This document shows positions 3,420 to 64,000 of a DNA stretch of 64,000 bases, piece after piece; the stretch's first letter is position 1, and every line of letters begins with the position of its first letter. The translations under genes were made by a program, and so were the position numbers. The notes below the pieces were generated by a model that saw only the letters and a program-made list of their open reading frames with translations, was not told where the DNA came from and made no database searches. The stretch covers positions 1 to 64,000 of the IMG/VR virus record IMGVR_UViG_3300002835_000047; one strand, written 5' to 3'. This DNA is from a virus.

Positions 3420-3421
3420 CT

Positions 3422-5899: not shown

Positions 5900-6125
5900 G
5901 CAATTTTTTCCAGGCACTAAGATTATTATTCCGGATAATGTCCGTGAAAAAACCTATCAAGGCCACGTAGTTGGCATTGGTAAAGAAATTTCTGACATTA
6001 ATGTTGGAGATTTAGTTCAGTATGTTGATTATGCTAATGCACAGGAAATGTACCATGATGGTGTAAAACATCTACTAATTTCTCACGCTGATATTCTAGC
6101 TGTAATTACAGATTTTAGTGATTAG
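5838..6125 (+). CDS. GroES-like co-chaperonin (Cpn10 family)
   Basis: A 95-aa protein with the GroES layout. ITPIGKKILILEKKPE corresponds to the first strand 'i.Pl.drvlv...e'. A mobile-loop region (FFPGTKIIIPDNVREK) corresponds to 'GGI.iPd.a.ek'. Then come GHVVGIGKEISDINVGDLVQY ('G.VvavG......v..GD.V.y') and a C-terminal LLISHADILAVI ('l....dilavi'). The hydrophobic tripeptide that docks on GroEL is III rather than the usual IVL/IML, which is plausible. It likely caps the host GroEL for folding of phage proteins, as T4 gp31 does for its capsid protein. It lies directly before TerL and overlaps it by 8 bases. Confidence 0.88.
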   Translation: MKNQKITPIGKKILILEKKPEQFFPGTKIIIPDNVREKTYQGHVVGIGKEISDINVGDLVQYVDYANAQEMYHDGVKHLLISHADILAVITDFSD

Positions 6126-39856: not shown

Positions 39857-39907
39857 ATAATGCTGACTCAAACCTTATTAATATTATAAATTACACGTAT
39901 TTGTTTG

Positions 39908-39914
39908 TATATTA
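39908..39914 (+). promoter_or_regulatory. TATATTA promoter-like element
   Basis: In the 90-base gap before the first cargo gene, preceded by TTGTTTG and 33 bases before ATG 39947. The gap holds nothing else clear. Confidence 0.42.
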
Positions 39915-39946
39915 GTATTAACCGCTCTTTTAAATAAAGTATAAAT

Positions 39947-42379: not shown

Positions 42380-42381
42380 AC

Positions 42382-44697: not shown

Positions 44698-44706
44698 ATG
44701 TAATTG

Positions 44707-44725
44707 ATAAACTTAAAAAGTTTAT
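44707..44725 (+). terminator. AT-rich hairpin ATAAACTT-AAA-AAGTTTAT
   Basis: A perfect 8-bp AT-rich stem with a 3-base loop, followed by a T-rich stretch. Weak as a terminator; may mark a partial stop between two cargo genes. The 72-base gap also has TTTTTGTAAT before ATG 44770. Confidence 0.5.
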
Positions 44726-44769
44726 TGATTTAATTTTTAAAACTAAAAAAATTTTTGTAATTTAGAGAT

Positions 44770-47700
44770 ATGGCAACTTATACACAGGGAAACCAACCTT
44801 ATTTACCCAATTGGCAGCCTTTTACACCGGACTATAAATTTTTGTCTGATGTTTTAGATACAAAAACTAACAGGTATAATACAAATTATAAAGAGTTAAA
44901 TGATTTGTATGGTAAGGTTGTTTATTCAGAATTGAGTCGTCAAGACACTAATGAAATGAGAGATCAATTTACAAACACTTTAGGTAAACAACTAGAGCTA
45001 GTTTCAGGTATGGATCTCTCTGTTGCTCAGAACGTTGACTATGCTAAAAAGTTGTTTAAGCCTTTCTATGATGAAAAGATTATTGTAAAAGATATGCTCT
45101 ATACAAAAAAGTATAGAGATGATATGCAATATGCAAATCAGCTTCAACAATCACCAGATCAGCAAATGAGAGAACTATACTGGACAACCGGTGTAGAAGC
45201 TTTGAATTATCAAATGCAAGATTTTAAAAATGCTTCTGCAGACGAAGCTTTGGGAATGTCACTTCCTCAGTATGTTGCAGATGCCGATCTAGAACAAAAA
45301 GCATTAGATTATTTAAAAAAGCAAGGTTTTGATGTGACAATGGATAGTATATCTCCGGATGGTGCTTTTATTGTAAAAGATAGAAATGGTAATTTAATTA
45401 CGGAACAAGCATATAGGATGGCTAGTAGAGCGCTTTTAGATGATCCCATTGTACAACAAGCTTATTATACAGATGCCTATGTAAAGTCAAGAAAGTTTGC
45501 AGACTCAGGTATTCAGACCGGTAATTTTAAATCAGTGAGTGAAGGTCAAAATGCTTGGGCTAGTGAAGTCATTAATGTTTATGAAAAAAATCTAGCCATT
45601 AGATCATTAAATGAAAAAGCAGATTTGAGTAAACTTCAGGATATAAATGTCAATTGGGAAAATTACATTAAAAATTATGGTATTATTCCTGGTTCAACCG
45701 AAGAGCAAGAATTAAATGTTGTACAAGATGAATTAACGTCAAAGTTAATGGCTTACCAGCAAACGCAAAGTATTTTGCAAAATGCTGGTACTATGGATAC
45801 TAAAACTACAAAAGGACTTTTAAATAAAGCTTATAGTTTGATAATGGGTTATAATATGCAGGATGATCTTTCCGCAGGTGTTGTAGCTTTTTCAAATATT
45901 AACAAAAGTAGAGAACTTAAAGTAAACGACTATTATAAGCAAAAGCTTGATCACCAACATGATTTTGCAAAAATTCAACAGCAGCATACAAATGCTATGA
46001 CGGAAGAAGCGCAAAAGCAGAGGAATAGAATTGATTTAGAAAAATTAAAAGGTACAATTGGTGGATCTGACTTTATAAATAGTATATTAGGTGGAGGCAT
46101 GGATGCTTCAGGTGCTGTATATAATGAAATGGGTACTGAATCTTCTGCTATAGATACTGAAACAGGTTTGGCAATTGACCCTAAAAAATATGATTATGTT
46201 AATGGTCAACAAAATAAGATCCTTAATTATCATCAGGATGCACTTAATGAAAACATCCAATTTGGATTAGAAGCTTTAGAAAAGTTTTATCCATCAAAAA
46301 ATGGTAATAATCAATATTCACTTAACTTTGAAAATACAGGAATTACTACTACCAAAGTGGGATCTTTACCAGAATTAAGGCAGTATCTACAAGATCCTCG
46401 CAATAAAACTATTGCTGAAGGATTTATATATAAAATGCATGCTTTAATGAAAGATCCGGATTTGGCAGTTAAGACAAATCCAAATTTTGTTAAAGAAAAC
46501 AGTGGCGCTAATTATCAAGAATTACAAACTAGATTTGATGTCTCTATGGGTCGTTTGACTGCTGTAGATAATATACAAACCCAATTTATGGGTACAGTAA
46601 GTGATAATTTTGATAAAGCAATTCAAACAGATTTAACATCTGAAACTAAATCTGTGCGTGAAGATATAGCTGCCGGTGCACTTAAAATTATTCAGCCGTC
46701 TCAAAATGGAACATCCAGAATAATCTCAGAGCAAGAATTTATTGCTGACTTTATTCAGAAGGCAAAATCTAAAGGTCCACAAAATAATAAATATTATTAT
46801 TACGCTTCACCTGCAGCTTATACTAGAGCTTCTATAGGAACACTTCCTCCAGGGGGAGTAAGTGCGCAGGACTTAGCTATGAGTTCTAGTAGAAGACCTA
46901 AGACGGATGGTTTTATATTTAATGAAAATTTAGCTGTGGCAAATGCAGTTAAGTCTTACAAAAGACAAAAGGATATTATGAATGCTACCCTTAGTGGTGT
47001 ACTTAATACCGAAGCTGAAAAAGGTGGCAAAGGAAGGATCTTTCAAAGTTTTGACGCTGGCTCATTTATGAGAGGTGTACCAAAAGATCAAATGACTGCT
47101 GCTGATGCTCTTAAAAATCCGTCCTATCCTTCGTTCTTTGATCCAACAACAATTGGTAAAGATCCATTGTCTCAAAGGAATTTTGCTTTTTTGGTTGGAC
47201 AGGTTAAGAAAACACCGTCTCAAGATTTAACGTTCTATGCTGGTGATATTGGTAAAGATGATGTTAGAACTGAATCAAGTAACGCTAAGGCTAAGCAAGT
47301 ATTTGATCAATGGTTGTTAAGTGTTTCTTCTTTTTCAAATGCTAAAGCAAGTAAGACAAATATACCAAAAGCTAATATTACATATAATCCTGTATATGGT
47401 GCAAATGATGCGGATAATTTGGGAAAAACTAAAGCGGCATATGTGATAACTTTTGATACAGATTGGTTACAGTCTTTGCAAGGAAGCACTAATAAACCTG
47501 GTTTAATTGGCGCAATTGAACTTGAATCATTTAAAACAATAACTATATCTTTTCCTCAGGATAAAGACGTTAGTGACAGAAGTTTTAAAGATTTTAATTT
47601 TTCTAATGTGATTTATGATGTAGAGTATTCACCTGAAAAGCAATATGTAAAAAATATTGATTCCGGAGGTAGAGTAAGAGTTTATAAAAACGCAAAAGAT

Positions 47701-47913
47701 GAATTGATTTTGGAGACTCAACCCACCATATATAATATTAAAACGGGGAATATGGAGCCATTGCAAGTTCAAACATTTCCTATAGGGCAAATTGCAAGTG
47801 GAAGTCCTATTGAACAAATTGATTTTATAGTGCAACAAAAAATCAATCAGCTTAATATTATAGCTCAAAATAATAACAAAAATCAGTTGGCAAATAAAAA
47901 ATCAAAACAATAA
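44770..47913 (+). CDS. Virion cargo protein (1047 aa)
   Basis: A 1047-aa protein. Its opening MATYTQGNQPYLPNWQPFTP and the following helical region (about 25-110) look like the proteins that precede the polymerase in crAss-like genomes and are packed in the capsid or tail. It is mostly helical up to about residue 420 (heptad-like Gln/Lys/Glu), then mixed with beta-rich C-terminal part, and ends Lys/Asn/Gln-rich. No enzyme motif is visible and, unlike its two upstream neighbours, it has no clear xQxGG motif near its N-terminus. It precedes the giant gene by 11 bases. Confidence 0.7.
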   Translation: MATYTQGNQPYLPNWQPFTPDYKFLSDVLDTKTNRYNTNYKELNDLYGKVVYSELSRQDTNEMRDQFTNTLGKQLELVSGMDLSVAQNVDYAKKLFKPFYDEKIIVKDMLYTKKYRDDMQYANQLQQSPDQQMRELYWTTGVEALNYQMQDFKNASADEALGMSLPQYVADADLEQKALDYLKKQGFDVTMDSISPDGAFIVKDRNGNLITEQAYRMASRALLDDPIVQQAYYTDAYVKSRKFADSGIQTGNFKSVSEGQNAWASEVINVYEKNLAIRSLNEKADLSKLQDINVNWENYIKNYGIIPGSTEEQELNVVQDELTSKLMAYQQTQSILQNAGTMDTKTTKGLLNKAYSLIMGYNMQDDLSAGVVAFSNINKSRELKVNDYYKQKLDHQHDFAKIQQQHTNAMTEEAQKQRNRIDLEKLKGTIGGSDFINSILGGGMDASGAVYNEMGTESSAIDTETGLAIDPKKYDYVNGQQNKILNYHQDALNENIQFGLEALEKFYPSKNGNNQYSLNFENTGITTTKVGSLPELRQYLQDPRNKTIAEGFIYKMHALMKDPDLAVKTNPNFVKENSGANYQELQTRFDVSMGRLTAVDNIQTQFMGTVSDNFDKAIQTDLTSETKSVREDIAAGALKIIQPSQNGTSRIISEQEFIADFIQKAKSKGPQNNKYYYYASPAAYTRASIGTLPPGGVSAQDLAMSSSRRPKTDGFIFNENLAVANAVKSYKRQKDIMNATLSGVLNTEAEKGGKGRIFQSFDAGSFMRGVPKDQMTAADALKNPSYPSFFDPTTIGKDPLSQRNFAFLVGQVKKTPSQDLTFYAGDIGKDDVRTESSNAKAKQVFDQWLLSVSSFSNAKASKTNIPKANITYNPVYGANDADNLGKTKAAYVITFDTDWLQSLQGSTNKPGLIGAIELESFKTITISFPQDKDVSDRSFKDFNFSNVIYDVEYSPEKQYVKNIDSGGRVRVYKNAKDELILETQPTIYNIKTGNMEPLQVQTFPIGQIASGSPIEQIDFIVQQKINQLNIIAQNNNKNQLANKKSKQ

Positions 47914-47924
47914 CTTATTTAAGT

Positions 47925-50900
47925 ATGCTAAATGCTAATACAAACGAAAGACTAATGTCGGAAGGTGGTTTGCCACAAACAAATCCTCAAATTCCAGATA
48001 GTAGTAAATTTGAGTTTCAATCTGTATATGATTTTTTTTCACCACCAGATACTCCGGAATTTAATCAAATTATGGATCCTGAGTATGAAAATATGCTTAG
48101 GCAACATGCACAACAAATTAATTCCTATGCTCCTGCTGCTATTGGTAATTTAAATACACCAACACCAACATTATCTTCAGAAACGTATAACCCCACAAAG
48201 CAAAGAACCGGATACAATTTATCTACTCCGGATGGTATACATGCGTTACTAAATGATTTTTCAGGAGTAATTAAGAGTGACAAACCGGTTATAGCAAATC
48301 CAATTGCAGCTGGTATTAGAGAAAGTAATTTTGATAGATACTATAAACATCCTAAATTTTCAAAGTTAGGCTGGCATCCTTACGCTGACAATGAATCTTT
48401 TTACAATGCTAATTCTTCTTGGTGGGATGATTTTGGAAGAATGAGTACTCAGTTCGGTAATCTTGCTAGCACAGGGTTTGTTTCATCATATCGTTCTATT
48501 GGTGATTTGTTTGATTCAGATTCATATTTTTCAGGTACTGATATGGAATCAGCATCAGAATTTTCTGATGCAATGCGAATTGGGAATAGTACACGAGGTG
48601 GTGTTGCTGGTTTTGCCAATAATTTAGCACTTCAGTTTGGATATACCGCTGGTATAATTGGGTCTATTGCGGTTGAAGAACTTGCCCTTAGTGCTGGGGC
48701 AGCACTTCAAGGATATATGAATCCTTTAGCAGATGCTGCTCTTGCAGGTAGAACTGCGTTGAATATGGGTAGATTAGGTAGAAGTATAGCACAATCTTTT
48801 GATGTTACAAGGTTTGCCGGTGCTACAAGAAATATGTATAATACATTAAGGTCTGTAGACGCGGCAAAAGATTTCTATTCTTTTGCTAAAACTGGTGGTA
48901 GAATTGCAGGTCAAATTTTTGCACCAGAAACTTACAGGGCAATAAAGACCTTAAACAGTACTGCAAATGGAGCGCAAAATCTTACAAACATGGCCAAAGT
49001 TTCAAAAACTTTTGGTGGTTTTTATAGGGATTTGAGATCTTTGAACTTAGCGCTTTCTGAATCAAAGATGGAAGGTGGTATGGTTTATGCTCAGCAGTTG
49101 GCAAATAATTATGATTATTATTCTGAAAAAAACAACGGTACCCCAGTCACTGAAGAGCAAATGGGTTTGATCACAGAAAATGCATCTAGAGCTGCATACT
49201 GGACTACACTTCAAAATGCGCCAACAATATTCTTTTCAAATCAATTGCTTTTAGGAAACGCTTTTGGAGCATACAATAAATCATTAAGTAGAATACTAAA
49301 TGATAATGTTAGTGGTTTGGCCGGTAGAGTCATAAGAGCAAAGGGTATCACTGAAGCTGGTAAAGCTGTGACTCGTCCATTTATAGATGCAGGTACAGGT
49401 TTAAAGGGTCTTTATAATACAGTTAAAGCTGCTGGAGTAAGGGGTAGTGTACAAATGGGTGCGCATGCTTCACTTAGATATTTTGCTGCTAATTTATCTG
49501 AAGGTATCCAAGAATTAACCCAAGAGGCAATTGCTCATGGTACAAAAGATTACCATCTTGAAATACTTAAAGATCCTGCATCTGGTGGAAAAGATTTATT
49601 GTCTGCAACAATTGCTTCAGCGGTTGGTTCTCAATTTAATTCCCAGGGATTTGAAACTTTCATGTCCGGATTTTTAATGGGTGGTCTTGCACAAGGACCA
49701 CAAAAATTACTTTTTCAAGGATTACCTAGTTTGTATCAACGTACTTTTGAAAAAGAAAAGTTTGAGGAATACAAAAAAAATAAAGAAACTTATATTAATA
49801 ACTTAGTTAATTCTTTAAATGATGCTTACGAGATCACAGCAAATGATCCAATGAGCTCAATTTTTGATACAAACAAAGTCAATCTTGTTTCTCAAAAACA
49901 AGCAAGTGATAATATACTGCAATCAATATTTGATGATTCAGAATTTGATTTTGTAGATGCTAAAGATTTTTCAAAATTTCAGTCTATTTACACAGTTCTT
50001 TCTAGTGGTAAAGCATCTGACTTTAAAGCTCAGTTCAGAGATTATTTAAAGATGACCAATGAGGAATTGGCTCAAATTTTTCCGGCTAGCAAAAAAGATA
50101 TAAAATCAGGAAAGCTTGCATCTAGAATGCAAGATATGATCAATAAAATTGATCAGCTTGAAGATTCATTTAATGAAAATAAAAATAAATTTCAGAATCC
50201 GTTTAATTCATCTATTTACAGAAAAGGTACTAGAGAGTATAATGAGGAAAGAATAAAAGAAATGTCTTTTGAGCATGCTAGATATCTTTACATGTTTACT
50301 GAAGATGGTTTTAAAAGAGCTTTGGAAAGATCTAAACTACTTTATGATGACTTAGCATCTGATCCAATTGTTGGAAAAATGGCAGCTAGTGATATTACAG
50401 TTTTGTTAGATCAAAACTCACTGGCTAAAGAAATTAAAATGCTCCTCAGTGAAATTTCTGTTTTAGATCCAAAGGAGAACAAAGAAATTATTGAAGCAAA
50501 AACAAATAAACTTAAAGGTCTTGATGCCGTGTTTAATGTTTTATATGCTAAAGAAAACTTAAATGCTAAAGGTAATTTTGATAAACGTAAAATAAATAAG
50601 TTACGCAAAGCTTTTGAAACTTATGTTCAATTGCTAGCAAAATCAAATGGTACTTTTGCGGATCAAAATAAAATAAAAGAAGCGCTTAAAAAAATTATAG
50701 ACTATAAAGATCTTTCAGAAAGAGCAAATGCTTATAACAAATCTATTGAGTACATGAATAACCCAGATAGATTTGATGAAATCAGATTAAGGGCTTACGA
50801 ATTTTATAAAAGTATTTTTAGAAATAGAGCACAGGTTTTTAAAGAGTCACTTAAAAATTATATTTCTAAATCTGAAATAAACCAATTTTTGAATGAGCTT

Positions 50901-53900
50901 GATAAACTAAATGTAATCCCTGATCCGGAAGAAGTTAAAATCTTTATGCAAAATGGAGACATTAATGTTCTTCAAAATTTTTATTCTGAATCAGGATTGG
51001 TTGGAAAAAATACTGACCCAGATATTTACGATCAAATTCAAGGATTAATAAATATTTATAAAAGTTCAGTAGAACCTACAGTCACTGAAAAACCAGAAGA
51101 TGAAGCAACTGCAAAATCAAATGTTGAAGAAAATATAGATGCACTATTAGAAAGTGCTAAAATTGATGATGCTCCAGAAAAAGCTGAAACATCCGTATAT
51201 GGAACTGAACCAAACATAAATCCTTTCATTAAAAAATTACTAGAGGCTAAATATAGATTATATGTTGGCCGCCAAATTAGTTTGGGTAAGAGTCCTGTAT
51301 CTCAAATTAATTGGCTTAAAGGCAAAGAAGCAGAAAGTTATTTGAATGCATATAAAGCTTTAAAAAAGGTATGGTATAATGATCTTAAAAATTCAGGGCA
51401 ACAAAGCTTAATTGAAACTAATGGTAATTTTGATATAGGTTTTGAAGAATGGTTGAAGAGCAAACAGGATGATCCTATCATTGATAAAGTATTTGATATA
51501 GTTGACTTAACTATTCACGATTTTATTAAAATTCCAACTCCTAATTCAAGTTTTGTTTCTAATACTTCTGACAAAGTTGTTGATGATACATTTGATAACG
51601 TAGTGATTATTGAAAATAAAACTTTGATTGATGATCCTGATACAGGACTTTCTACACAAACTTCAATTTTTACAGTTAGAACTAAAGCGGGTCAATTAAT
51701 TGAAGATGCATATACAAAAGCAGCCGGTGTTTCATCTGGAGCAGCTTTTAGTAATATTAGTAAAGCGCGTGAGGCAGCTAAAAAACTAGATCCTTTATTG
51801 GTTGAAAATACACCTTTTAAATTTGGGGATAAAGAAGTATTTTATGGTTCTTCTGTATATGATAAAAATGGAGATGGTTATGTAGTAATTGGTACGGCTC
51901 CTGAAGTTCAAAGAGGCGGTAAATTATTTTTACTTCCTTTTGATAAAATAAAGAATGCTTCTACTAAGCAAGAGAGAAATAGGTTAGCTAAGAAAGTTAC
52001 TGAAGATGAGTTTACAAACGATTATGTTTTAGATGAATTTAATTTTTCCAGGCTTTCTGAAAATACTTCTAAACTTTTAGTTGACGAGGCAGTTGGTGTT
52101 TATAGTTTTAGAAATGCAAATGAAACTGAAGAGCAAGCAAATCTTAGATTGCAAACTATTTTAGAAAATTTAACGCCGGAGGAAAAAAAGTTTCTTTTAG
52201 TTATTAAAAGAAATCCCAAAGAAGGAGTTAGAGGTAAATATAAAATAGGAACGAAGGATGAAAATCCTTATATCAATAAAGTAGCTGAGCCATTTTCTGT
52301 AGGTCTTACTTTTGCAGATCCGAACACAAGATCAAGAATAAATAATATACTTTCACAAAATGGAATAGAATTAAGTTCAGATCCAAATGGTGTATTTGGT
52401 TTTGTAAGAACTGGGTCCGTTCAATTTGTAAATAAAAAGAATGAGGTTATAAATCCAGTAAATCTTCCTAAGGAAATTATTGATGACACGTTTAAAATTT
52501 ATGAGTCTCAGGAACCAAATGCTGTAACTAATATCAGAAATAATTTTGCAATTCAACAAGCTTTTGTTGATCAGATTGCTGATAAGATGGAAGGTGTAGA
52601 TAGTATAATTATTCCTGCCAATGAGTTACCAGAATTTAGTTTTAATATTGGTTCTTCAGTTTATGTAAAAAATAAATCTGAGCGGAGTATATACGATCTT
52701 AAATACAATACTGTAGATGGGGTCCGCGTATTAATGATTAATGATAAACTTAAAGATGGAACTATATTAAGTCGCATATTAACGGATATTGATGACATTG
52801 ATGAGAGCAATGCTTTTGTAAATAAACTTGAATCTGATTTAAAAGCCCAGCCTGGTTTATTTGAAGTTTTACAAAAAAGTCAGAGATATGTTCTTTTGAT
52901 TAAATCACCTAATGGTTTATTTACCGGTGCTCCTTTAAAAACTAATAGACTTTCTGATGATCAAATTTTTGAATTAGGTCGTGAACTTATTAAAGAAGGT
53001 ATTAGAACAATTAATGAAAACTTAGTTGGTGAAGGATCTGTAGAAACAAAGAAAATTAAAGACCCAAACTTTAATATTGAATTTAATAGAGCTTTTAATA
53101 AAAAGTTTTACATTACAACTAACATTGAAGGTTATACTGTTGAAATTAATGTTAATTCAGATGGTACATTTAGAGCGGAGCTGTACGATAAAAACGCAAA
53201 AAAAGTTATTGGTACTTCATATATAAATGAAGGCAGGCAAGGAACTCTTGATTATCAAGATGTTGAAAATCCAGATATTATTGAACGTCTTTTAGATAAC
53301 CTTCAGAAAAAGGGTATTGATAAAGCTACTCAGGATTACAAAGAAGATAAGAAGAAAGATCCATCTTTAGAAATTCCTGAATGGACTAAACTAGAAATTT
53401 CAAAATCTAATGTAAGAGATAGTTTTCAAGAAGATGCAACTGTTGATACAGTTATTAATAATACTGTAACAAATCTTGATGTTAATGTAAGAACTAATTA
53501 TAAGCTTAGACTAAATGCAGGTTCAAATACCATTCAAGAAGTTTTATTATTTGCCGCAACGCCGGCTGCTATTCAGCAAGAAAATAAAGTAGTTGTTGAG
53601 GAAACACCTGTAGCTCCTGTTTCTGAAATAGAAGCTAAGAAAGCTGATATAGAAAGAAGAAGAAAAATATCATTAACTAAAATAACAGCAGAACAAGCTA
53701 AAAATATATCAGGTATACAAGATCTTGAAGGTTATTATGAAATTAATGGTTTTTGGGAAGGAGTTTATATAACAGATAAATTTGAAGGAAGGTCCACTCC
53801 TTATAAATCTGCTATTACAGCAAATTCTGAGAAAGAACTTTTAGATAATATCAATGCTAAATATGATGCAGAACTAGTTGCTTTAGAAGGAGTTAAACCT

Positions 53901-56900
53901 GCACCAATTGCTGTAACTACTCAAGAAGTTACAGCACCTCTTAAAAGAGAGTTGCAACAGAATCAAGTAAGAATAAAAGAGATTGAAGCTGAGATTGATA
54001 ATGCTGAATCCGATATGGTTAAAGCAAGTCAATTAATGGAAGATAATGCTGAAAGGCAAAAGTTAATTGCGCGGAACAGAGAAATTCAAAGAAAGCTGCT
54101 TGCTAACAAAATTGTAAGTAAAACACTTAGTGAACAAGAAGTTGCTGACATTGATGAGTTTGTAATTTGGGCAAATAATAATTTGCCAAACTTTATTACT
54201 GTTGAAGATATTTCTAATCTTAGAGATAACCTGGTTACTAACGGTGTACGTGTTGGGGCTTTTGTTTTATCAATGAATCAAATTGCAGGTGGAATGACCG
54301 TAAAAGGTACACTCTACACCGGCGCTAAATCTCCGTATAAATACCATGAAGCATTTCACGGTGTATTTAGATCTTTACTTTCTAATACACAACAAGATAA
54401 ACTATACAAGATTGCTGAGGCAGAATTAAAAGCAAAGCTTGGTAATAAGTTTGAAGAAGAACTATCTAAGTTTAGAAACTCTGCTGATTCATATAAGGCA
54501 ATGAGTAGAAAAGCTCTTGAAAAAGAGTTTTATGAAGAATACATGGCGGATGAATTTGATAAGTTTAAAATGGATCCTAGATCTACAAAAGCTAATCCGG
54601 CAATTAAAAACTTCTTTACTAGACTTATTGAATGGATTAAATCTTTGTTTAGTTCTTATTCACCTAATGAGCTTCAAGAATTATTCAAAAATATTGATTC
54701 AGGTAAATTTAAATCAGCATCGCCAATCAATAACAGATTTACTGATAGTCTAGCTAATGGTATCACTCTTGCTAATAAAATTATCCCTGTGGAGATGATT
54801 GAAAGTGAGACAGGTGCATTTGGATATAGGACTTTAGATAATGACTTTGCAAGAAGTCTGATATCTTCTATTTCTGCAAGAGTTATTATGCTTGAGCAAG
54901 AAAATAAAAATGCTAACTTTAATCTAAAGGAGGCGGTTAATGATTCTTTCAATAGATTTAGGGCTCTCTATAGTACTAAGCGAGAAGCCTATAAAACTAT
55001 GGAACTTACACCTGAACAAAAAAGTAATCTTAGAGATATTGAAAAAGCTTTTTCTGATTTTTCTGATTTTATTAAGGAGGGTGTTTATGATCAATTAAAA
55101 TATTATGATATTAAAACAAGAAACGTTGAAGATGATTTAGAAGATTTAGAAGAACAAGTAGGAGATAGACTTAGAACTACTGATCAGTATGACAAAGATG
55201 TAACTAGTATTGGTGGATTTTCTTCTCTTTCTTCATTCTTGAGAAAATACATTGGAACAACGTCTATTTCGGAAATGGACCAGTTTGGTAATGAATATTT
55301 GATTGATCAAGAAAAAGATATAAATGGAAATGTTATAGAAGGAACCGGTGAAAAGCTTTTAATTACTGTAGATTTTGCTACAGCTTATAATGGCTTTTTG
55401 AAAGCAGTTAAGAATATAAATGATCCCATTAAGATTTTACAACGTCTTTATTTTTTTGGTATTAATAATCCTCAAACTCAAGCTGTAGTAAACAAATTAT
55501 TTCTTGATTTAGGAATTAAATGGGAAGGTCAACTTGAAAATGATCAACTTCCTCAGTATTCTAGTACTATAATTGAAAAATTTAGAAATGGCCAGGAAGT
55601 AACGCCAGAAGAATTAAAAGAAGGTATTAATAGACCTTTACTGTTTCAAGCTGTACTAAAAGGTTTTGAAAATGCACGTGTTGATTACTTGTTTATACAT
55701 AGAAGTCCAGGCGATAAAGTAACCACATATACAGCAGCAAATAGAGATGATGCCAATACCCAAGTTGATAGATGGGGGCAAGCTTATATTCAAAAGTTTA
55801 AACGTTTAAAAACAAGTAAAGACGCTAGAGATAAAATTGTTAAAGAATTACAAACACTTGGGTCTTACTTGCAGTTTGTTGGAAAAGATGAGAAAGTAAG
55901 CAAAAAGCTTAAAAGCAGGGAAGATGATATACTTTTGAAAGATGCTATTAACTTTTCAAAAGTTATTGAAGAATATTTAGGTATTAGTTTAAGTCCAAAG
56001 TTTATTGAGTTTAGTATTGCAAAAAATCTTGAAGAGTTAACACCTTATCAGAAAGCATTACTAAATGCAAATTCTAATGCAAAAGTTTTAGAACAAACTG
56101 ATGTTGTAGAAATTACGAAGGCTATCGCCAGTAATCAAAATTTATTTACTATAGACGAAGGTGTAAAGATTAGACTTAAAGTAATTGCATTATCTAATGC
56201 GGAATTTGATGAAAATGTTGGGGCTTCTGTATTCAAGAATCCAAATGGTGATTTAGTTTATGCTCACCAATTACCATCATTTCATTTAAAGAAAGTAAAC
56301 TCACTTAATGATATTACAGATAATGGAGCGAAAATTGAAAAGTTAAAAAATTCTGATGACTATCTCAAAGATAACTTTCTTTTAAATAGTGAAGCATTTA
56401 AACAGCTTTCAGCTGAAGGTAAATTAAGAGTTCTAAGAATATCCGGATCAAAGATTGGTAATATTGATTTTGATGAAGATGGTTTGATGTCAGAAACTTC
56501 AGGTAGAACTCCTTCATCTGGTACAACTTATGGTGATTCAACACCAAGAGAATTTATTCTTAATTTGATTAATTCTTATAATTATGATGTTGACTCTTCA
56601 AAAGGTAAATTAAAAAATAAAATTTCTTGGGCAGCTGAAGATAAAACAATTAACGTTGCAGCTATTGCCCCTGTTCTTTTACGTGTACTAGAATCTTCAA
56701 ACACGGGAGATATGATGGCTTTACCTGTATTTAAAGCTGTAGAAAAAAATTCAAAGGGAGAAACTGTTTTAACGGACCAAGCACTTGATGCTATATTAAA
56801 CAATATTGCTGCTGAATTTACAAGAATACAAAAAGAGTCTAATCCGGAAACTGCAACTCAAGAATTATATGTTGGATATAATGCGCTTGCAATTGAAAGT

Positions 56901-59900
56901 ACAGAAACAGGAACTGAAGAAATTATTCCTATTAATGTAAATAGCCCAAGTATTAATAAAGCTAGAGCTTTTAACTTTCATAAAACAGGTGTTCTTTTAA
57001 GTCCATTAGGCCAGAAAAAAGAAAGCCGCCAAGGGATTGTAACAATTCAAACTTCTGATATCAAATTGGAAAGAATTGAAAAAGGAAAGCAAACATCTCT
57101 TATATATGATCAAAAAGCCGCAGAACAATTTATTGGTTTTACATCTACCGGTGTTGTTAGAGATGCTATTGTAAAAACTAAAGATGGAGACAAGAATATT
57201 CAAAAGAAAATTATTGGTAGAGGTTTAATAAGAGTAACGCCTGAAAATAGAGAAAGAATATTTGAAGATTTTAAGGGCTCTATTTCACTTATTCAAAATG
57301 ATCAGTTTAAATATGAAGTACGTATTGGCAATAAAAAGTTTTACGTAGAATCAATCAATGAGCAGAAGTTCTTACAAGGTAAGAAACCTATGTATATGTA
57401 TGATTTGATGGAAGTTGGGGAAGCTGGTTTAATGGATCAAGTCACAGCTCTTATTGGTGGATTTGAAGCTGAAGGTTACTTAGATAAACTAACTGAAGCA
57501 GCGCGTTCTCAGGAGTTTGCAGGATTAACTTTTATGGAAGCTATTCAAAAGCTTGGTATAAAGGAATCAGAGTTGAAAGGATTTTTGCAAAATAGAATGA
57601 ACCAAGAATTTGCAGAGTTTAATATTACACTGGACGAACTTGTTGGTGCAGAAGGTGGATTAGGAAACTTCTTGACAAATGGCATTCAGTCAGGATCTGG
57701 TACAATAACCACAGAATCTAGAGAAGCCGGTCGTTTATTAAATATTATTCCTGAAGACAAAGCATATAATCTAAAGCAAATCTTTTTTAATGACTATATA
57801 AATACTACGGCCATTAACCAAATTTTATTAGGTGATAGTGCTTATAGTTTGAAGGACGCGGTTGATGAAATTAAAAGAGCAAAAGCACAGTCAGCATCTT
57901 ACTATAGTGCAGCAAGTACAGTAGCTGCACCTGAATATGGTATTTACAAACCATTACAAGAAATTTCTTTGTTTGAGTTAACGGAACCTATTGTCAATTC
58001 AACTCATAATATCAGTAAAATTAAAAATGCAGATGCTCAATTGTGGATGACAACTAAAGCTTTCCGTAATTTTCAATACGGTTTTGGTAAACTTACTCCA
58101 GCCCAAGCAGCTTTGTTTGATAAAATTGAAAATGGTGATGATGTTAGTGCTGATGATATTTTTGGTACAGAGGAATCTACCGGATATGCTAAGAGGCAAG
58201 AAATGCTTAATTCTCAAAAGCTTGTCTATGCGGATGGTAAAACATTCGTTAAGATGTCAGCATTCCCATTATTACCACAGTTTACTTCAATAAAAGACTC
58301 TGAAGGTAACTATACTATTCCTAAACCTAATAAAGTAGCTTTACATAATTTAAGAGTTAAGCTTGAGGCATTTGAAAAAGAAAATGATACAGTTTCGGTA
58401 GCTGCCCCAAGATCTGCATTAAAAATGATGCAAAAGAATGTGTCTAACATTCACAGTGTTACTGGAACAACAAATCCATTAAGTCAAGATCAATCTGTTA
58501 CACTTAATGCTAATTACTTAGGTTTACAGGTTATTAATCCATCTAATAAAACTGTTATAACGGATCCTACCCAGGTTAAAACGTTGGTTACTTCTGAACA
58601 GAATGATTCTACAGAAGTGATAGTCAATGGTAAGAAAATAACACTAGGTGAAGTGAGAGCTGCTTATCATAAAGCAACTAGAGATAGAGGTAACTTAAAC
58701 TATATCAACAAAAGAAATTTGATATTCTCTTTTGATCTAGAGTATGCAATAGATGAACTTCATAAGAGTATTAAAGAAAATGCTATTACTGCAGATCTTT
58801 ATACTTACTTGAGATACGCAGAAGCTAGTCTTGCATCTACAGGTTCATCAAGTCATTTGATGGAATTATTTTCACTAGATGAATCCGGAAATCAAAAGTA
58901 TAATCTTAATAACCCTCTCACTTATGATAAGTTCTTGAATTTATTCATGAGCTATTTCAGCAAAAGTGTGTTTAATGAGAAGTTACCTGGTGCAACAATA
59001 TCATTGGTTTCTGATTATGGCGTAAGAGTTTACAGAAGAGTTCTTTCTGTAGATGAAAATGGAATGCCTGATAAATATGAGATTATTACTGAAGCTCAAT
59101 ATGAGGCTATGGCTAATAAACCTGGTATTGCATTTAATATTGATGAAGGTTCTTATCCAGGTAATGATGAAAATCTTGCAGGTCTTAATGATGCAGTGAA
59201 AAAATCTAAGGGTGCCGGTGTTGTTATTATTGACCGTTTGAGACATAACATGAAAGAGTATGACTCAAACGGAAAAGAAACTGGACAAAGGTATGGCGAA
59301 ATGATATTACCACCTCACCATAAAGAAGTGATGGAACAGTTACAACTTCAAGGTAAATCTATTCCGGATGTTGTAGGTAAAATGTTTGCTGTACGTATTC
59401 CTTCACAAGATAACCATTCAACTTATAACGTTAAGTGGATAGACTTTATGCCTGCTATTTATGGTTCTTCTGGTGTGTTTGCAAGAGAACTTATTGAGAT
59501 ATCAGGAGCTGACTTTGACATTGATAAACTCTATACGCAATTTAAAGAGTTTTACTTAGAAAACAATAAGTTCAAAGAATATGGAAAAGCTACAACTGAT
59601 GATGCTAAATACATTGAGTATATAAATTATGTAAATAAAAAAGTAAAAGATTCAGATTCCATATATAGTGAAGCATTATATAAATACAATGGTCGGGGTG
59701 TAGGTAAAGCTATAAGTATTACCTATGAAGATTTACTTTCTGCAAAGAGTAGAGGCTTTACTGAAAATTCTATAAATGCTTTATTGGTATTAGGTATGCC
59801 TGTTACCTTAGCGGATTACAAAAAATATAAGGAAAAGTTCAGACATGAACCATATGCCGCAGCAATTAATAATGATATTTTAGATTATAAGTTTGCACTT

Positions 59901-62900
59901 ATGGGTAACGATTATGTTACTGAAAGAAAACCTTTGTTTTTGGATAATAATGGTAAAACTACAACTGTTAACACGGGTAAGCCTGCGTTAGATGAAAATG
60001 GTAAGCAAAAAACTTCTGTAGCAATCTCACATGAAGCAGCTGACATGGAAGTTTTAAAGGATCTTTGGAATGAACTCAAAGAAGAACTTCCGGAATGGGC
60101 CGCTTTATCTGAAGAAGAAGGTATTGATGTAGATAACTTATATGGCAAGCTTAGAATGTTTGCTAACAACAAAGAAGGTTCTAGATCAATTGGTGCGGTT
60201 GTATTGCCTAACCTATATTTAAATCTTCTTCAGGAGTATGATGTAAAAATTGAAAGTACCAAACTTAATAGTGAAGAAGTATTACCTCAAATTGAATTTG
60301 GTGGATTTACATTTAGAAACTTTAACAATACGTTTGAGTTAAATGAAGACACTAGTCAAGGTAAAAGAACTCAGTATATAATATCTGCTTTAATCACTGC
60401 AGCAACTGATAACGCTAAAGAAAGACTTTTGGCTAAGCTTGGTTTAAATATCAATGCTTTATCAATTGTAGCAAATCTTACAGCTTTGGGTGTTCCTATA
60501 AAAACTTCAGTTCTTTTGGTTAACCATCCTGTTATTAGGCAAGCTTACTTTATGGAAGCTAATGCACCGGCTGATCAAAAGATATCTGCAAGATCTATAG
60601 TGCAAGAACGAATTAGTGCACTAGAAACAACATTTCTTGAAGAGGAGGAAAAAAAACTGAGAACTTCCGTCACTCAAAACTCTTTAATGGAAGCAATTGA
60701 GACACCATTAATTAAAGCGAATGCTACTGAGGGTGATATGATTGAACTTAGAGAAAGTAATGAGGTAACAAAGATGCAAGTCATTGATGAAATTTCAATA
60801 TTAGAACAGTTTTTAAATGCTTATAAACTAGCTAATACTACGCGGTATATGGGTGATATCTTAAGTCTTACCAACGGTTTAGGTCAAGGTCTTGAGGCAA
60901 TTGATAAGAGAAATGAGGCAATAAAAAAATTAGGTCTTAATTTATCTAAGGAACAATTTTCAGCATTAGGTGTTAATAGACCAATGATTGATGCTAGACC
61001 TGTGTTCAAAGGTCTTACGTGGCAAGCCGGTTATCTTGAAAGATTCCAGGAGTTTACTAATTTGTTATTACCGAAAGTAGTTCTTTCAACAACTCCTTTA
61101 TTTAGAACAGTCACTGAAGAAATAGCATATCAAACTACGGTTAATAGTTTACCTTATGAATTAAAAGATAAAACTAAAACAAAAATTGCTAAAGATTTTC
61201 TATCTTATTTGACAATTAAAGCTTATATCCAAAATGGCTTAGTTAATAATTCACAGTCTATAGCTACTCTTACAAATGGATTAATTTATAATCAAGACGG
61301 TATTGAAAATATAACTAAAGTATTGGATAGACTTAGATCAACTGAAGAAGGTGCTAACAATTATTTTTTGAACTCTTTTATTATTACTGAAAAAGCAAAT
61401 TTAAAAGGTAATAAAACCGGTTTAAATTTAGCTGGTGCAAATACATTTTTAAGATATAATGATTCTCAAAAGTTAGACATTCAAAATGGCTTTATGGCTT
61501 TGTATGCTGATCCATTAACAAGATCAGATGCAAAAACAATTGTGCATTATATGATGGTCAAAGATGGTTTGCAATATGGTTATAAATCAATTGTTGAAGC
61601 TGTAGCTCCAATTGCCATTGATAATTACTTATCCCATATTGATACAGTACAGGCGGCAATAGAAAGACCTAATGATACTATATTTAAGTCAACATTTGGT
61701 ATGAGCATAGATGACTTAGTGATTGATTTTATGAAGGGTTATTTAACATCATCAATTAACGCCTATATAATTAAAAAAGTAAGAGCAAAAGTCTATGATC
61801 CGGAAACAAAAATTATTGGTATTGAATCTAATTTTACTAAAGAACTAGCTTCGTCTAATTCTGAAGCTATTTTTGTTTTTGGAGATAATTTTGCAAGGCA
61901 AGGCACTGTTGGTAATAGTTCTATAAGAGGTTTGGATAATGCTTTTAGCTTATTCTTTAAAAAGGATATGAATAGAATTGATTCTTCTTACTACACAGAT
62001 GATGAAGCTGGAGATTTTATTACGATCTTTGATGAGCAAATGGAACAATTAACAAATATGATTGCTGAAGAAAAGAAAGTAATTTTACCTAAAGAATTAA
62101 TTTCATCTTCAGAACTAGCTGACTTTAAAAAGAATAGTCCCGTTGTATTTGATTATGTAAAGTCAAAGCTTTTACAAGAGTTTCAGTATAACATTGAAAC
62201 TAAAGAGAAAAAATCTGATGAAGAAAAGAAAGCAGCAAGAGTTTCAAATGTTAATATCTTAAAATCTCCTGTTCATGTGGATTCATCCGGTGTAGTATCA
62301 AAATTAGTTGTTAATTTATATACCGGAATTTCAAGACTTGAAAAAACAAATGCTGTCACTTCTAAACGTGATGTTCCTTCTAGTTCAAAATTAACTAAAA
62401 AATTTGGAAATCTTTTTATTAAAAACAAAAAAGCATTATATAAAGCTGGTTTTAGGAATTTAATTGATTTCAAAAAAGGTTCTGAATTTTACACTGAGGT
62501 AGAATTCCCAATAGTTATTAGACAAAATGTTGGATCGGACTATAAAGCTATATATAAATATTATGTACTTGCAAGAACACAAAGTTTAATTCCATCAGAA
62601 AATTTAATTAACTATAATAACAAAGCTGTCGGTAGTTATGCTGAGTATGTTGAAGTAGACATAAAAGGTTCAAACGCTCAGAATCCAATTGGTTTTATGT
62701 TTGGTGATAGACCTAATACAAAAGATCTAAGAGAGTTTGTAAAAGAAGTTAATTCTGATGATGCTAATTTTAATCAGTTTGATGATGAAAAGTTTGACTC
62801 AGTAATAGACAAAGCTGATTATGGATCCGGTGTGTCACTGCCTGTAAATTCAGAAATAACAGCGAATGAAAAAGGTATTCAAGTTAATGGTCAAAATATT

Positions 62901-63263
62901 AGTAAAGTAAAAGAATCATCTGAATCTTTTGAATCTGAAAATCTTGCAGAAAGTGATATTGAAATAACGGGTGATGAAAATCTAACCGATATAGATAATA
63001 ATTCAATTAATATTTCGGCTAGCTCATTCTTTGCTAGTTTACTAGAAAATGAATATTCAGAACTTAAGAGTTGGTGGGATCAGAATATAGATGGTGTATC
63101 TGATGAAGCTTTGCAAAATAAAAATAAAATTAAAGAACTAACTAAAGATCCTAATATGAAATTTAAAGTAAATGACTATGATGATTTTTTAGATGAGTTT
63201 AAACAAAGTGGTTTTCAAAATGAAAAAGAATTTATAGAACACTTCAAAAATTGTTATCTTTAA
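47925..63263 (+). CDS. Giant virion RNA polymerase fusion protein (5112 aa)
   Basis: One unbroken frame of 5112 codons. N-terminus: MSEGG (11-15), then two hydrophobic stretches (about 229-265 and 575-595) that might enter a membrane, and charged coiled coil to about 1100. A zincin-type HEAFH is at 2141-2145, with acidic EEYMADEF near 2201 as possible third ligand. The polymerase core follows: VRIPSQDNH (R3824) and GADFDIDKLY with D3863, D3865 and D3867, equivalent to the Mg-binding DFDGD loop of cellular RNA polymerases and to DFDID of crAss-like enzymes such as phi14:2 gp66. Near 4640-4740 is a module starting AIFVFGDNFARQG, macro/nucleotide-binding-like. Likely packaged, injected and used to transcribe early phage genes. 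Other crAss-like genomes often spread these parts over two or more genes. Confidence 0.85.
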   Translation: MLNANTNERLMSEGGLPQTNPQIPDSSKFEFQSVYDFFSPPDTPEFNQIMDPEYENMLRQHAQQINSYAPAAIGNLNTPTPTLSSETYNPTKQRTGYNLSTPDGIHALLNDFSGVIKSDKPVIANPIAAGIRESNFDRYYKHPKFSKLGWHPYADNESFYNANSSWWDDFGRMSTQFGNLASTGFVSSYRSIGDLFDSDSYFSGTDMESASEFSDAMRIGNSTRGGVAGFANNLALQFGYTAGIIGSIAVEELALSAGAALQGYMNPLADAALAGRTALNMGRLGRSIAQSFDVTRFAGATRNMYNTLRSVDAAKDFYSFAKTGGRIAGQIFAPETYRAIKTLNSTANGAQNLTNMAKVSKTFGGFYRDLRSLNLALSESKMEGGMVYAQQLANNYDYYSEKNNGTPVTEEQMGLITENASRAAYWTTLQNAPTIFFSNQLLLGNAFGAYNKSLSRILNDNVSGLAGRVIRAKGITEAGKAVTRPFIDAGTGLKGLYNTVKAAGVRGSVQMGAHASLRYFAANLSEGIQELTQEAIAHGTKDYHLEILKDPASGGKDLLSATIASAVGSQFNSQGFETFMSGFLMGGLAQGPQKLLFQGLPSLYQRTFEKEKFEEYKKNKETYINNLVNSLNDAYEITANDPMSSIFDTNKVNLVSQKQASDNILQSIFDDSEFDFVDAKDFSKFQSIYTVLSSGKASDFKAQFRDYLKMTNEELAQIFPASKKDIKSGKLASRMQDMINKIDQLEDSFNENKNKFQNPFNSSIYRKGTREYNEERIKEMSFEHARYLYMFTEDGFKRALERSKLLYDDLASDPIVGKMAASDITVLLDQNSLAKEIKMLLSEISVLDPKENKEIIEAKTNKLKGLDAVFNVLYAKENLNAKGNFDKRKINKLRKAFETYVQLLAKSNGTFADQNKIKEALKKIIDYKDLSERANAYNKSIEYMNNPDRFDEIRLRAYEFYKSIFRNRAQVFKESLKNYISKSEINQFLNELDKLNVIPDPEEVKIFMQNGDINVLQNFYSESGLVGKNTDPDIYDQIQGLINIYKSSVEPTVTEKPEDEATAKSNVEENIDALLESAKIDDAPEKAETSVYGTEPNINPFIKKLLEAKYRLYVGRQISLGKSPVSQINWLKGKEAESYLNAYKALKKVWYNDLKNSGQQSLIETNGNFDIGFEEWLKSKQDDPIIDKVFDIVDLTIHDFIKIPTPNSSFVSNTSDKVVDDTFDNVVIIENKTLIDDPDTGLSTQTSIFTVRTKAGQLIEDAYTKAAGVSSGAAFSNISKAREAAKKLDPLLVENTPFKFGDKEVFYGSSVYDKNGDGYVVIGTAPEVQRGGKLFLLPFDKIKNASTKQERNRLAKKVTEDEFTNDYVLDEFNFSRLSENTSKLLVDEAVGVYSFRNANETEEQANLRLQTILENLTPEEKKFLLVIKRNPKEGVRGKYKIGTKDENPYINKVAEPFSVGLTFADPNTRSRINNILSQNGIELSSDPNGVFGFVRTGSVQFVNKKNEVINPVNLPKEIIDDTFKIYESQEPNAVTNIRNNFAIQQAFVDQIADKMEGVDSIIIPANELPEFSFNIGSSVYVKNKSERSIYDLKYNTVDGVRVLMINDKLKDGTILSRILTDIDDIDESNAFVNKLESDLKAQPGLFEVLQKSQRYVLLIKSPNGLFTGAPLKTNRLSDDQIFELGRELIKEGIRTINENLVGEGSVETKKIKDPNFNIEFNRAFNKKFYITTNIEGYTVEINVNSDGTFRAELYDKNAKKVIGTSYINEGRQGTLDYQDVENPDIIERLLDNLQKKGIDKATQDYKEDKKKDPSLEIPEWTKLEISKSNVRDSFQEDATVDTVINNTVTNLDVNVRTNYKLRLNAGSNTIQEVLLFAATPAAIQQENKVVVEETPVAPVSEIEAKKADIERRRKISLTKITAEQAKNISGIQDLEGYYEINGFWEGVYITDKFEGRSTPYKSAITANSEKELLDNINAKYDAELVALEGVKPAPIAVTTQEVTAPLKRELQQNQVRIKEIEAEIDNAESDMVKASQLMEDNAERQKLIARNREIQRKLLANKIVSKTLSEQEVADIDEFVIWANNNLPNFITVEDISNLRDNLVTNGVRVGAFVLSMNQIAGGMTVKGTLYTGAKSPYKYHEAFHGVFRSLLSNTQQDKLYKIAEAELKAKLGNKFEEELSKFRNSADSYKAMSRKALEKEFYEEYMADEFDKFKMDPRSTKANPAIKNFFTRLIEWIKSLFSSYSPNELQELFKNIDSGKFKSASPINNRFTDSLANGITLANKIIPVEMIESETGAFGYRTLDNDFARSLISSISARVIMLEQENKNANFNLKEAVNDSFNRFRALYSTKREAYKTMELTPEQKSNLRDIEKAFSDFSDFIKEGVYDQLKYYDIKTRNVEDDLEDLEEQVGDRLRTTDQYDKDVTSIGGFSSLSSFLRKYIGTTSISEMDQFGNEYLIDQEKDINGNVIEGTGEKLLITVDFATAYNGFLKAVKNINDPIKILQRLYFFGINNPQTQAVVNKLFLDLGIKWEGQLENDQLPQYSSTIIEKFRNGQEVTPEELKEGINRPLLFQAVLKGFENARVDYLFIHRSPGDKVTTYTAANRDDANTQVDRWGQAYIQKFKRLKTSKDARDKIVKELQTLGSYLQFVGKDEKVSKKLKSREDDILLKDAINFSKVIEEYLGISLSPKFIEFSIAKNLEELTPYQKALLNANSNAKVLEQTDVVEITKAIASNQNLFTIDEGVKIRLKVIALSNAEFDENVGASVFKNPNGDLVYAHQLPSFHLKKVNSLNDITDNGAKIEKLKNSDDYLKDNFLLNSEAFKQLSAEGKLRVLRISGSKIGNIDFDEDGLMSETSGRTPSSGTTYGDSTPREFILNLINSYNYDVDSSKGKLKNKISWAAEDKTINVAAIAPVLLRVLESSNTGDMMALPVFKAVEKNSKGETVLTDQALDAILNNIAAEFTRIQKESNPETATQELYVGYNALAIESTETGTEEIIPINVNSPSINKARAFNFHKTGVLLSPLGQKKESRQGIVTIQTSDIKLERIEKGKQTSLIYDQKAAEQFIGFTSTGVVRDAIVKTKDGDKNIQKKIIGRGLIRVTPENRERIFEDFKGSISLIQNDQFKYEVRIGNKKFYVESINEQKFLQGKKPMYMYDLMEVGEAGLMDQVTALIGGFEAEGYLDKLTEAARSQEFAGLTFMEAIQKLGIKESELKGFLQNRMNQEFAEFNITLDELVGAEGGLGNFLTNGIQSGSGTITTESREAGRLLNIIPEDKAYNLKQIFFNDYINTTAINQILLGDSAYSLKDAVDEIKRAKAQSASYYSAASTVAAPEYGIYKPLQEISLFELTEPIVNSTHNISKIKNADAQLWMTTKAFRNFQYGFGKLTPAQAALFDKIENGDDVSADDIFGTEESTGYAKRQEMLNSQKLVYADGKTFVKMSAFPLLPQFTSIKDSEGNYTIPKPNKVALHNLRVKLEAFEKENDTVSVAAPRSALKMMQKNVSNIHSVTGTTNPLSQDQSVTLNANYLGLQVINPSNKTVITDPTQVKTLVTSEQNDSTEVIVNGKKITLGEVRAAYHKATRDRGNLNYINKRNLIFSFDLEYAIDELHKSIKENAITADLYTYLRYAEASLASTGSSSHLMELFSLDESGNQKYNLNNPLTYDKFLNLFMSYFSKSVFNEKLPGATISLVSDYGVRVYRRVLSVDENGMPDKYEIITEAQYEAMANKPGIAFNIDEGSYPGNDENLAGLNDAVKKSKGAGVVIIDRLRHNMKEYDSNGKETGQRYGEMILPPHHKEVMEQLQLQGKSIPDVVGKMFAVRIPSQDNHSTYNVKWIDFMPAIYGSSGVFARELIEISGADFDIDKLYTQFKEFYLENNKFKEYGKATTDDAKYIEYINYVNKKVKDSDSIYSEALYKYNGRGVGKAISITYEDLLSAKSRGFTENSINALLVLGMPVTLADYKKYKEKFRHEPYAAAINNDILDYKFALMGNDYVTERKPLFLDNNGKTTTVNTGKPALDENGKQKTSVAISHEAADMEVLKDLWNELKEELPEWAALSEEEGIDVDNLYGKLRMFANNKEGSRSIGAVVLPNLYLNLLQEYDVKIESTKLNSEEVLPQIEFGGFTFRNFNNTFELNEDTSQGKRTQYIISALITAATDNAKERLLAKLGLNINALSIVANLTALGVPIKTSVLLVNHPVIRQAYFMEANAPADQKISARSIVQERISALETTFLEEEEKKLRTSVTQNSLMEAIETPLIKANATEGDMIELRESNEVTKMQVIDEISILEQFLNAYKLANTTRYMGDILSLTNGLGQGLEAIDKRNEAIKKLGLNLSKEQFSALGVNRPMIDARPVFKGLTWQAGYLERFQEFTNLLLPKVVLSTTPLFRTVTEEIAYQTTVNSLPYELKDKTKTKIAKDFLSYLTIKAYIQNGLVNNSQSIATLTNGLIYNQDGIENITKVLDRLRSTEEGANNYFLNSFIITEKANLKGNKTGLNLAGANTFLRYNDSQKLDIQNGFMALYADPLTRSDAKTIVHYMMVKDGLQYGYKSIVEAVAPIAIDNYLSHIDTVQAAIERPNDTIFKSTFGMSIDDLVIDFMKGYLTSSINAYIIKKVRAKVYDPETKIIGIESNFTKELASSNSEAIFVFGDNFARQGTVGNSSIRGLDNAFSLFFKKDMNRIDSSYYTDDEAGDFITIFDEQMEQLTNMIAEEKKVILPKELISSSELADFKKNSPVVFDYVKSKLLQEFQYNIETKEKKSDEEKKAARVSNVNILKSPVHVDSSGVVSKLVVNLYTGISRLEKTNAVTSKRDVPSSSKLTKKFGNLFIKNKKALYKAGFRNLIDFKKGSEFYTEVEFPIVIRQNVGSDYKAIYKYYVLARTQSLIPSENLINYNNKAVGSYAEYVEVDIKGSNAQNPIGFMFGDRPNTKDLREFVKEVNSDDANFNQFDDEKFDSVIDKADYGSGVSLPVNSEITANEKGIQVNGQNISKVKESSESFESENLAESDIEITGDENLTDIDNNSINISASSFFASLLENEYSELKSWWDQNIDGVSDEALQNKNKIKELTKDPNMKFKVNDYDDFLDEFKQSGFQNEKEFIEHFKNCYL

Positions 63264-63266
63264 TAT

Positions 63267-64000
63267 ATGGCATGTTTTAATAGAAATACACAGGAATATA
63301 AAGATCTATTAGGTAATTTTAATAGTAATCTTAAAGTTGACGGTATCATTACCGGTTGGCAGCTAGCAAATAACAGTGATAAATTTCCCACTGTAGCAGA
63401 AGCCAATCTGTTTTTGAAAAATAAAAAAATTGCTTTTAATCTTAAAAAAAGAGATTTTTCAGATGTCTTATTGTCAAATCTAGTTAATAAGCGCCTTGTA
63501 AGTAAATACAAAGATGCATATTGGGTTGTTAATTCAAATAGAGCTTCACGCGTTTATGATGAATCTGTATTGCAAAGCAACTTTAGTAAAATTAAAAGAT
63601 ATCTTCAAATTAATAATATTCCGGTAGAGGCTTTACAATTTACTAGAACTAGGCAATCTATTAAGATTGCAGTTGATGATTCTATATTTAGCCCTAAAGA
63701 TTTATTAGAATCTTCCAGGTCCTGGGATACTAATAAAAGTAAACATGTTATTGTTCATTTAATGAGGTTGTTTCCAAATCTTAGGATTGAAATGACTACT
63801 GTAGCTAAAGCAAAAGCATATTACGATTCATTACCTGCATGGCAAAAGGCAAATGTTAAATTTGAAAAAGTAAATTCTTATTTTGATCCGGTTGCTAGCA
63901 AGGTTTTTTTGGTTGAAGGTAGAGTTACAGATGAAACAGCTATTGAAGAAATACTTCATCCTTTTACAGATGCCTTGTATATAGAGAATAGAGGTTTGTT
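63267..64000 (+). CDS. N-terminal part of a second large virion protein (runs off window)
   Basis: ATG 63267 follows the giant gene by three bases, and the frame stays open for 244 codons to the window edge. It starts MACFNRNTQEYKDLLGNF, continues with charged helical and mixed segments, and reaches DETAIEEILHPFTDALYIEN (about 220-240). EEILHPF resembles a zincin-type helix with only one of the two usual His, so it may be an inactive relative or use other ligands. Its place directly after the polymerase suggests another large cargo or polymerase-associated protein. Confidence 0.75.
   Translation, partial: MACFNRNTQEYKDLLGNFNSNLKVDGIITGWQLANNSDKFPTVAEANLFLKNKKIAFNLKKRDFSDVLLSNLVNKRLVSKYKDAYWVVNSNRASRVYDESVLQSNFSKIKRYLQINNIPVEALQFTRTRQSIKIAVDDSIFSPKDLLESSRSWDTNKSKHVIVHLMRLFPNLRIEMTTVAKAKAYYDSLPAWQKANVKFEKVNSYFDPVASKVFLVEGRVTDETAIEEILHPFTDALYIENRGL

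Follow-up and report, generated by a model that had tools for sequence, protein, structure and literature searches.

The stretch of DNA that was analysed (the window, 64 kb) forms the first part of a virus record of 117,886 bp and holds, on the plus strand, an open reading frame that runs through 5112 residues without an internal stop. The neighbourhood is that of a crassvirus, with genes for terminase, portal and muzzle, genes in the cargo position and, adjoining the giant gene, a gene for an RNA polymerase (RNAP)-associated subunit (Table 1). Comparison by hhalign of the genes in the cargo position with crAss001 gp45 and gp46 and with Carjivirus gp46 and gp47 detected no homology. Two adjacent genes of the same genome encode cysteine-rich proteins (26572-28098, 31 Cys in 508 residues; 28110-28673, 13 Cys in 187 residues).

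A frame of 15 kb could in principle be an assembly artefact that fuses separate genes. The chance of this is negligible, because the frame is intact in relatives: it is free of stops in five related virus records at 66-87% local identity, where four complete copies encode 5132-5161 residues and the fifth copy ends with its contig. The fused architecture described below also recurs in most of 80 environmental loci, and nothing was found in favour of an artefact. The frame is open and real, as the initial annotation had assumed.

Table 1. Features of the giant gene and its surroundings (nucleotide positions in the window; residues of the encoded protein).
Feature	Residues	Position	Strand	Basis or remark
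Terminase large subunit (6118-8304) and portal (8304-11048)		6118..11048	+	
Crassvirus muzzle protein		32133..37577	+	Pfam crAss_MUZ
Four Cys-free genes upstream of the giant gene (759, 810, 771, 1047 aa)		37577..47913	+	Position of crassvirus cargo C1/C2 genes
Giant cargo protein, 5112 aa		47925..63263	+	N module (crAss001 gp47-like) fused to C module (gp50/phi14:2 gp66-like)
N-module start	62-260	48108..48704	+	Aligns with residues 2-189 of cr128_1 gp51
HEAFH zincin motif	2141-2145	54345..54359	+	Sequence motif
EEYMADE, conserved downstream Glu	2204-2210	54534..54554	+	Predicted third zinc ligand
RNAP core	3150-4349	57372..60971	+	AlphaFold model; best PDB match 6VR4
DFDID catalytic metal-binding loop	3863-3867	59511..59525	+	Motif, alignment, profile
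DUF7831 (FVFGDN module)	about 4635-4746	61827..62162	+	Pfam, E=1.1e-17
TGT codon, sole Cys of the giant	5110 (-3)	63252..63254	+	C-terminus ...FKNCYL
A subunit (gp49/gp65-like RNAP-associated protein), first part		63267..64000	+	Full gene 63267-68915, 1883 aa
TGT codon, sole Cys of the A subunit	3	63273..63275	+	Start MACF

The DFDID sequence had been read as the catalytic loop of a crAss-like virion RNAP. Its position is confirmed and the motif is not a chance occurrence, since it lies inside an invariant block in an alignment of 42 homologues. Seven aligned sequences share the signature R-I-P ... S-G-[SA]-D-F-D-[IV]-D-K, so that the G[SA]DFD[IV]D loop typical of phi14:2 gp66-type polymerases stands within a conserved R-I-P ... 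G-S ... context. In tblastn searches the region matches crAss001 gp50 and Carjivirus gp44. A single-sequence phmmer search against the PDB gave no match; with the 42-sequence profile the only significant solved structure was 6VR4, the structure of phi14:2 gp66 (E=2e-14). AlphaFold gave a pLDDT of 33 when supplied with only four close homologues, and the 42 diverse homologues were used instead, yielding a model of the core with pLDDT 83 and pTM 0.82. Foldseek placed 6VR4 first for this model (E=2.6e-24, probability 1.00, 1143 columns) and QDE-1 next. Compared as a whole, the predicted fold around residue 3863 agrees with 6VR4, which carries two double-psi barrels in one chain, and thus gives no sign of the barrel-less fold that would have contradicted the initial annotation. 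Sequence and model taken together, the DFDID module is almost certainly a Crassvirales virion RNAP. For phi14:2 and crAss001, packaging of the polymerase in the virion and its activity on early genes are results from the literature, and the enzyme of the present phage is probably packaged too. The FVFGDN sequence noticed near the C-terminus was found at residue 4650, within DUF7831. In GenBank the RNAP genes of crAss-like phages cr50_1, cr118_1, cr8_1 and cr126_1 are labelled DNA helicase, nuclear pore complex-like or DUF1768.

For the N-terminal part of the giant protein, tblastn with residues 1-2000 matched no phage record, and the module borders were deduced from homologues. Two stretches could be aligned by hhalign to crAss001 gp47 or its homologue cr128_1 gp51, namely the start of the module (E=1.9e-6 with gp51) and residues 2137-2265. 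The latter contain HEAFH, the sole HExxH of the giant, which is conserved together with a downstream EExxAD element (HEAFH ... EE[YN]MA[DE]). The fusion of a peptidase-like domain to the polymerase that the initial annotation had suggested is thus supported as a putative zincin-like metallopeptidase module, for which a Pfam search of the giant gave no match. Of the N-terminal hydrophobic segments also mentioned there, little remains: the mean Kyte-Doolittle value of one 19-residue window (242-260) is 1.38, and a clear membrane helix is not apparent. HExxH motifs recur in giant virion RNAPs of unrelated phages, for example HELVH at residue 2228 of the cysteine-free N4 gp50 (L113:9524-20026). 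A second zincin-like motif (HEIMH or HEMLH) is present in some A subunits, such as phi14:2 gp65 (L023, HEIMH at residue 245) and those of cr7_1 and cr114_1 (L120, L121); the N chain of phi14:2 has no HExxH.

Comparison with known phages shows that the transcription machine consists of three ordered modules: N, which bears the zincin, C, the two-barrel catalytic RNAP, and A, the RNAP-associated part. Of this machine the giant makes up the catalytic half, with N and C in one chain. It does not hold all parts, as had been proposed, because the next gene encodes the protein homologous to crAss001 gp49 and phi14:2 gp65 (E down to 8e-21). A single polypeptide with N, C and A was found in two complete cases only (L156 and L191). 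Three chains, N|C|A, are characteristic of Steigviridae (crAss001, phi14:2, cr106_1); N|C+A is the state of Intestiviridae (Carjivirus, cr11_1, crAss002), and N+C|A that of Suoliviridae, Fpv1 and the clade of the window. The block of transcription genes is depicted in Fig. 3 of PMC7886860, and virion RNAP genes of up to about 6000 residues have been described (PMC10136315). The giant is accordingly not exceptional among phage proteins, contrary to the initial annotation, since N+C proteins of 4,401-5,443 residues are already in GenBank: cr50_1 (4774 aa), cr118_1 (4946 aa) and the TAG-recoded cr7_1 (5443 aa) of Suoliviridae, and Flavobacterium phage Fpv1 (4401 aa). By itself it adds a member to a known protein type.

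What the initial annotation missed is a pattern of terminal cysteines, the feature that bears on the question it raised of how such a protein is threaded through a tail. The giant has one cysteine in 5112 residues against about 68 expected from the genome background of 1.34%, and the A subunit one in 1883 against about 25. These two residues lie at the end of the first chain and at the start of the second, and their codons are 21 bases apart. The four upstream genes have none in 3387 residues. Among the other open reading frames of the genome, a cysteine occurs within the last six residues in 5 of 104 and within the first six in 2 of 104. These frames served as background because a control with all open reading frames of the sampled loci was compromised by N chains that had gone unrecognised and by proteins ending in ECSSCEG, which we take for ribonucleotide reductases with a redox-active C-terminal CxxC.

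The same arrangement is found throughout the order. In nearly all of the 80 environmental loci the giant has a single cysteine, which lies at -2 to -5; the following frame nearly always has one at position 3 to 5. When these loci were combined with 80 further, more diverse ones and clustered at 80% identity, a C-terminal cysteine was present in 79 of 80 N+C chains, 41 of 45 C-only chains and 12 of 14 detected N chains, and in none of 8 C+A chains; A chains have an N-terminal cysteine in 107 of 108 cases and a C-terminal one in 0 of 105. The loci are the best-scoring relatives and not a random sample, and since many share ancestry these counts do not represent independent events. A C-terminal cysteine is likewise present in further N chains that had escaped the profile search, many of which are encoded on the opposite strand. 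Thus, across Crassvirales a terminal cysteine is present at nearly every chain end that faces another RNAP chain, and outer ends lack it. No description of this pattern was found in the searchable literature; an earlier remark may exist in the papers on phi14:2 gp66 (Nature 2021) or on the crAss transcription block (Nat Microbiol 2018).

Among others, crAss001, phi14:2 and Carjivirus conform to the pattern, with a cysteine at the end of every intact N chain, at both ends of C and at the start of A. In phi14:2, which shares with the window the three modules, the gene order and a DFDID two-barrel RNAP, they occur at -1 in gp67, at 3 and -2 in gp66 and at 3 in gp65; it differs in that N and C are separate genes and in that the HExxH is found in gp65 instead of gp67. 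The homologous N (HEAFH), C (DFDVD) and A proteins of crAss001 are gp47 (cysteine at -3), gp50 (5 and -9) and gp49 (5). They are RNAP-associated cargo detected in virions by mass spectrometry. Unlike in the window, they are three separate chains, with N encoded on the strand opposite C and A. Carjivirus (p-crAssphage) has cysteines at -2 in gp45, annotated as 'RNAP associated protein fused to zincin protease', and at 3 in the catalytic gp44; here C and A are joined in one 4070-residue chain and N is separate. The giants of cr50_1, cr118_1, cr7_1 and Fpv1 resemble that of the window in having a terminal cysteine followed by an A subunit with an N-terminal one, but the gut Suoliviridae retain several internal cysteines and cr7_1 reads TAG as sense. 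Outside the order, N4 vRNAP and P23-45 gp96 are also giant virion RNAPs with an HExxH or a metallopeptidase domain, respectively. P23-45 gp96 differs in being fused to the tape measure, and N4 vRNAP, a T7-type polymerase, lacks end cysteines, having none in 3500 residues.

The cysteines follow the joining and breaking of chains. They are lost on fusion: the complete N+C+A proteins have either no cysteine (L156, 5642 aa) or a single internal one and none terminal (L191, 5677 aa), and a third fusion with an open 5' end (L170) likewise has no end cysteine. They appear on fission. Where the A gene is broken around a GIY-YIG homing endonuclease frame (L005:14549-17629; an Rfam search there found no intron), the new ends read ...KKCS and MSCK, and where N itself is split (L181, L195) cysteines stand on either side of the break. 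A locus with three chains totalling 5397 residues (L176, N|C|A) has exactly four cysteines, one per facing end. In L181 (2552-16111) the N-terminal CPNKN...GE module typical of A subunits heads a different chain, like a movable coupling tag.

Four lineages deviate without full explanation. The giants of L090 and L162 lack the C-terminal cysteine, and in both an extra frame lies between the giant and A; in L147 and L135 the nine C-terminal residues of C contain no cysteine. The inserted frames (L090:14787-16613, L162:15825-18014) are YkuD-like and peptidoglycan-binding-like. Other apparent exceptions were resolved. The start of the crAss002 C+A gene (MN917146 gp33, L118:9866-22603) appears to be annotated 32 codons too early, the start MSCTPSN being conserved with cr107_1, and a start taken too early also explains cr11_1. 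L144 has its cysteine at position 9, the upstream chain of L194 has one at -10, L182 contains an in-frame stop, and in L029, L122 and L124 the DFDID gene is interrupted in an intron-like manner. A cause at the RNA level was rejected, as both TGT and TGC are used and positions vary, and a junction feature in DNA or RNA is excluded because N and C of crAss001, encoded on opposite strands, both keep their end cysteines.

In view of the above, we consider it probable (about 0.6) that the giant belongs to a crAss-like virion RNAP that is carried in the particle and ejected, with its chains stapled head-to-tail by disulfides. The retention of cysteines solely at the junctions between chains would be explained most simply by a disulfide, most likely formed in the mature, oxidised virion between the C-terminal cysteine of the giant and the N-terminal one of A. 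The RNAP would travel inside the virion and leave it before the DNA; its chains have lost their cysteines save at ends facing the next chain, and the linked chains could act as one continuous thread during extrusion through portal, tail and envelope, after which the reducing host cytoplasm would open the disulfide. In fused genes a peptide bond would serve in place of the disulfide, so that N-C-A forms one thread either way. For crAss001 the predicted pairs are the C-terminal CNS of gp47 with CITTNSTIEELAAK of gp50, and ICGANTLYEL of gp50 with CAIIPQVR of gp49. Disulfides do form elsewhere in crAss001 virions, for which reduced (R) and non-reduced (NR) mass spectrometry samples are described, and extrusion of its cargo in a partly unfolded state has been proposed (PMC10172136). 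The more specific proposal, that throughout Crassvirales the chains make up one covalent thread of about 0.6-0.8 MDa, that this thread leaves the particle in one piece and is released by reduction once in the cytoplasm, and that linkage by disulfide and by gene fusion have repeatedly taken each other's place during evolution, has in our estimate an even chance of being correct. Besides the four deviating lineages and the shared ancestry of many loci, two observations count against disulfide linkage: the genome yielded neither a thioredoxin nor a glutaredoxin, and gut phages keep internal cysteines in their RNAP chains, so that specific linkage there needs more than scarcity of cysteine.

Other explanations of the terminal residues can be considered. 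The giant could be an ordinary N+C fusion whose end cysteines anchor it to portal or scaffold, dock through a metal-thiolate or stabilise the refolded complex, with no bond between chains. This is rather unlikely, though the disulfide itself is inferred and the motifs at the chain ends, EEFIxxIKxC-x(1-4) and M-x(1-3)-C, might serve as docking tags. A generic anchor predicts neither the loss of the cysteines when all modules are fused nor their appearance at a new break, and it does not account for residues that flank each junction and are absent from outer ends. That terminal cysteines are merely tolerated, being purged inside the chains and harmless at the ends, where damaging disulfides do not form, is very improbable. 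Purging from ejected proteins is known, the absence of cysteine from N4-type vRNAPs being attributed to tail passage (PMC3715699, PMC3915230), and it is seen in the cysteine-free upstream genes, but tolerance predicts background frequencies at chain ends, as in the other frames of the genome, against about 99% observed at the facing ends of A and N+C chains; the complete lack of cysteine at the C-terminus of A also speaks against it.

A further alternative is that the giant is a polyprotein, cleaved into gp47-like and gp50-like proteins by the zincin (2141-2210) with which the N module ends. The zincin lies close to the border between N and C, two modules that are separate proteins in crAss001 and phi14:2, which would be consistent with this. 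However, the zincin is not needed only for such a cut, because it is conserved in crAss001 gp47 and Carjivirus gp45, which are N chains encoded apart from C. Cleavage would also create two termini lacking the cysteine that is found at natural ends of N and C. Processing of this kind is therefore improbable.

The crAss-like phages are the most abundant viruses of the human gut, and the end-cysteine code bears on how they force megadaltons of polymerase through a narrow tail. The disulfide linkage proposed here is open to testing in existing isolates, perhaps even in existing mass spectrometry samples of crAss001 (PMC10172136). The end cysteines, which follow fission and fusion almost without exception, provide a specific clue to injection; if the account is true, it would represent a new way of coupling and delivering proteins, as a reversible covalent train.
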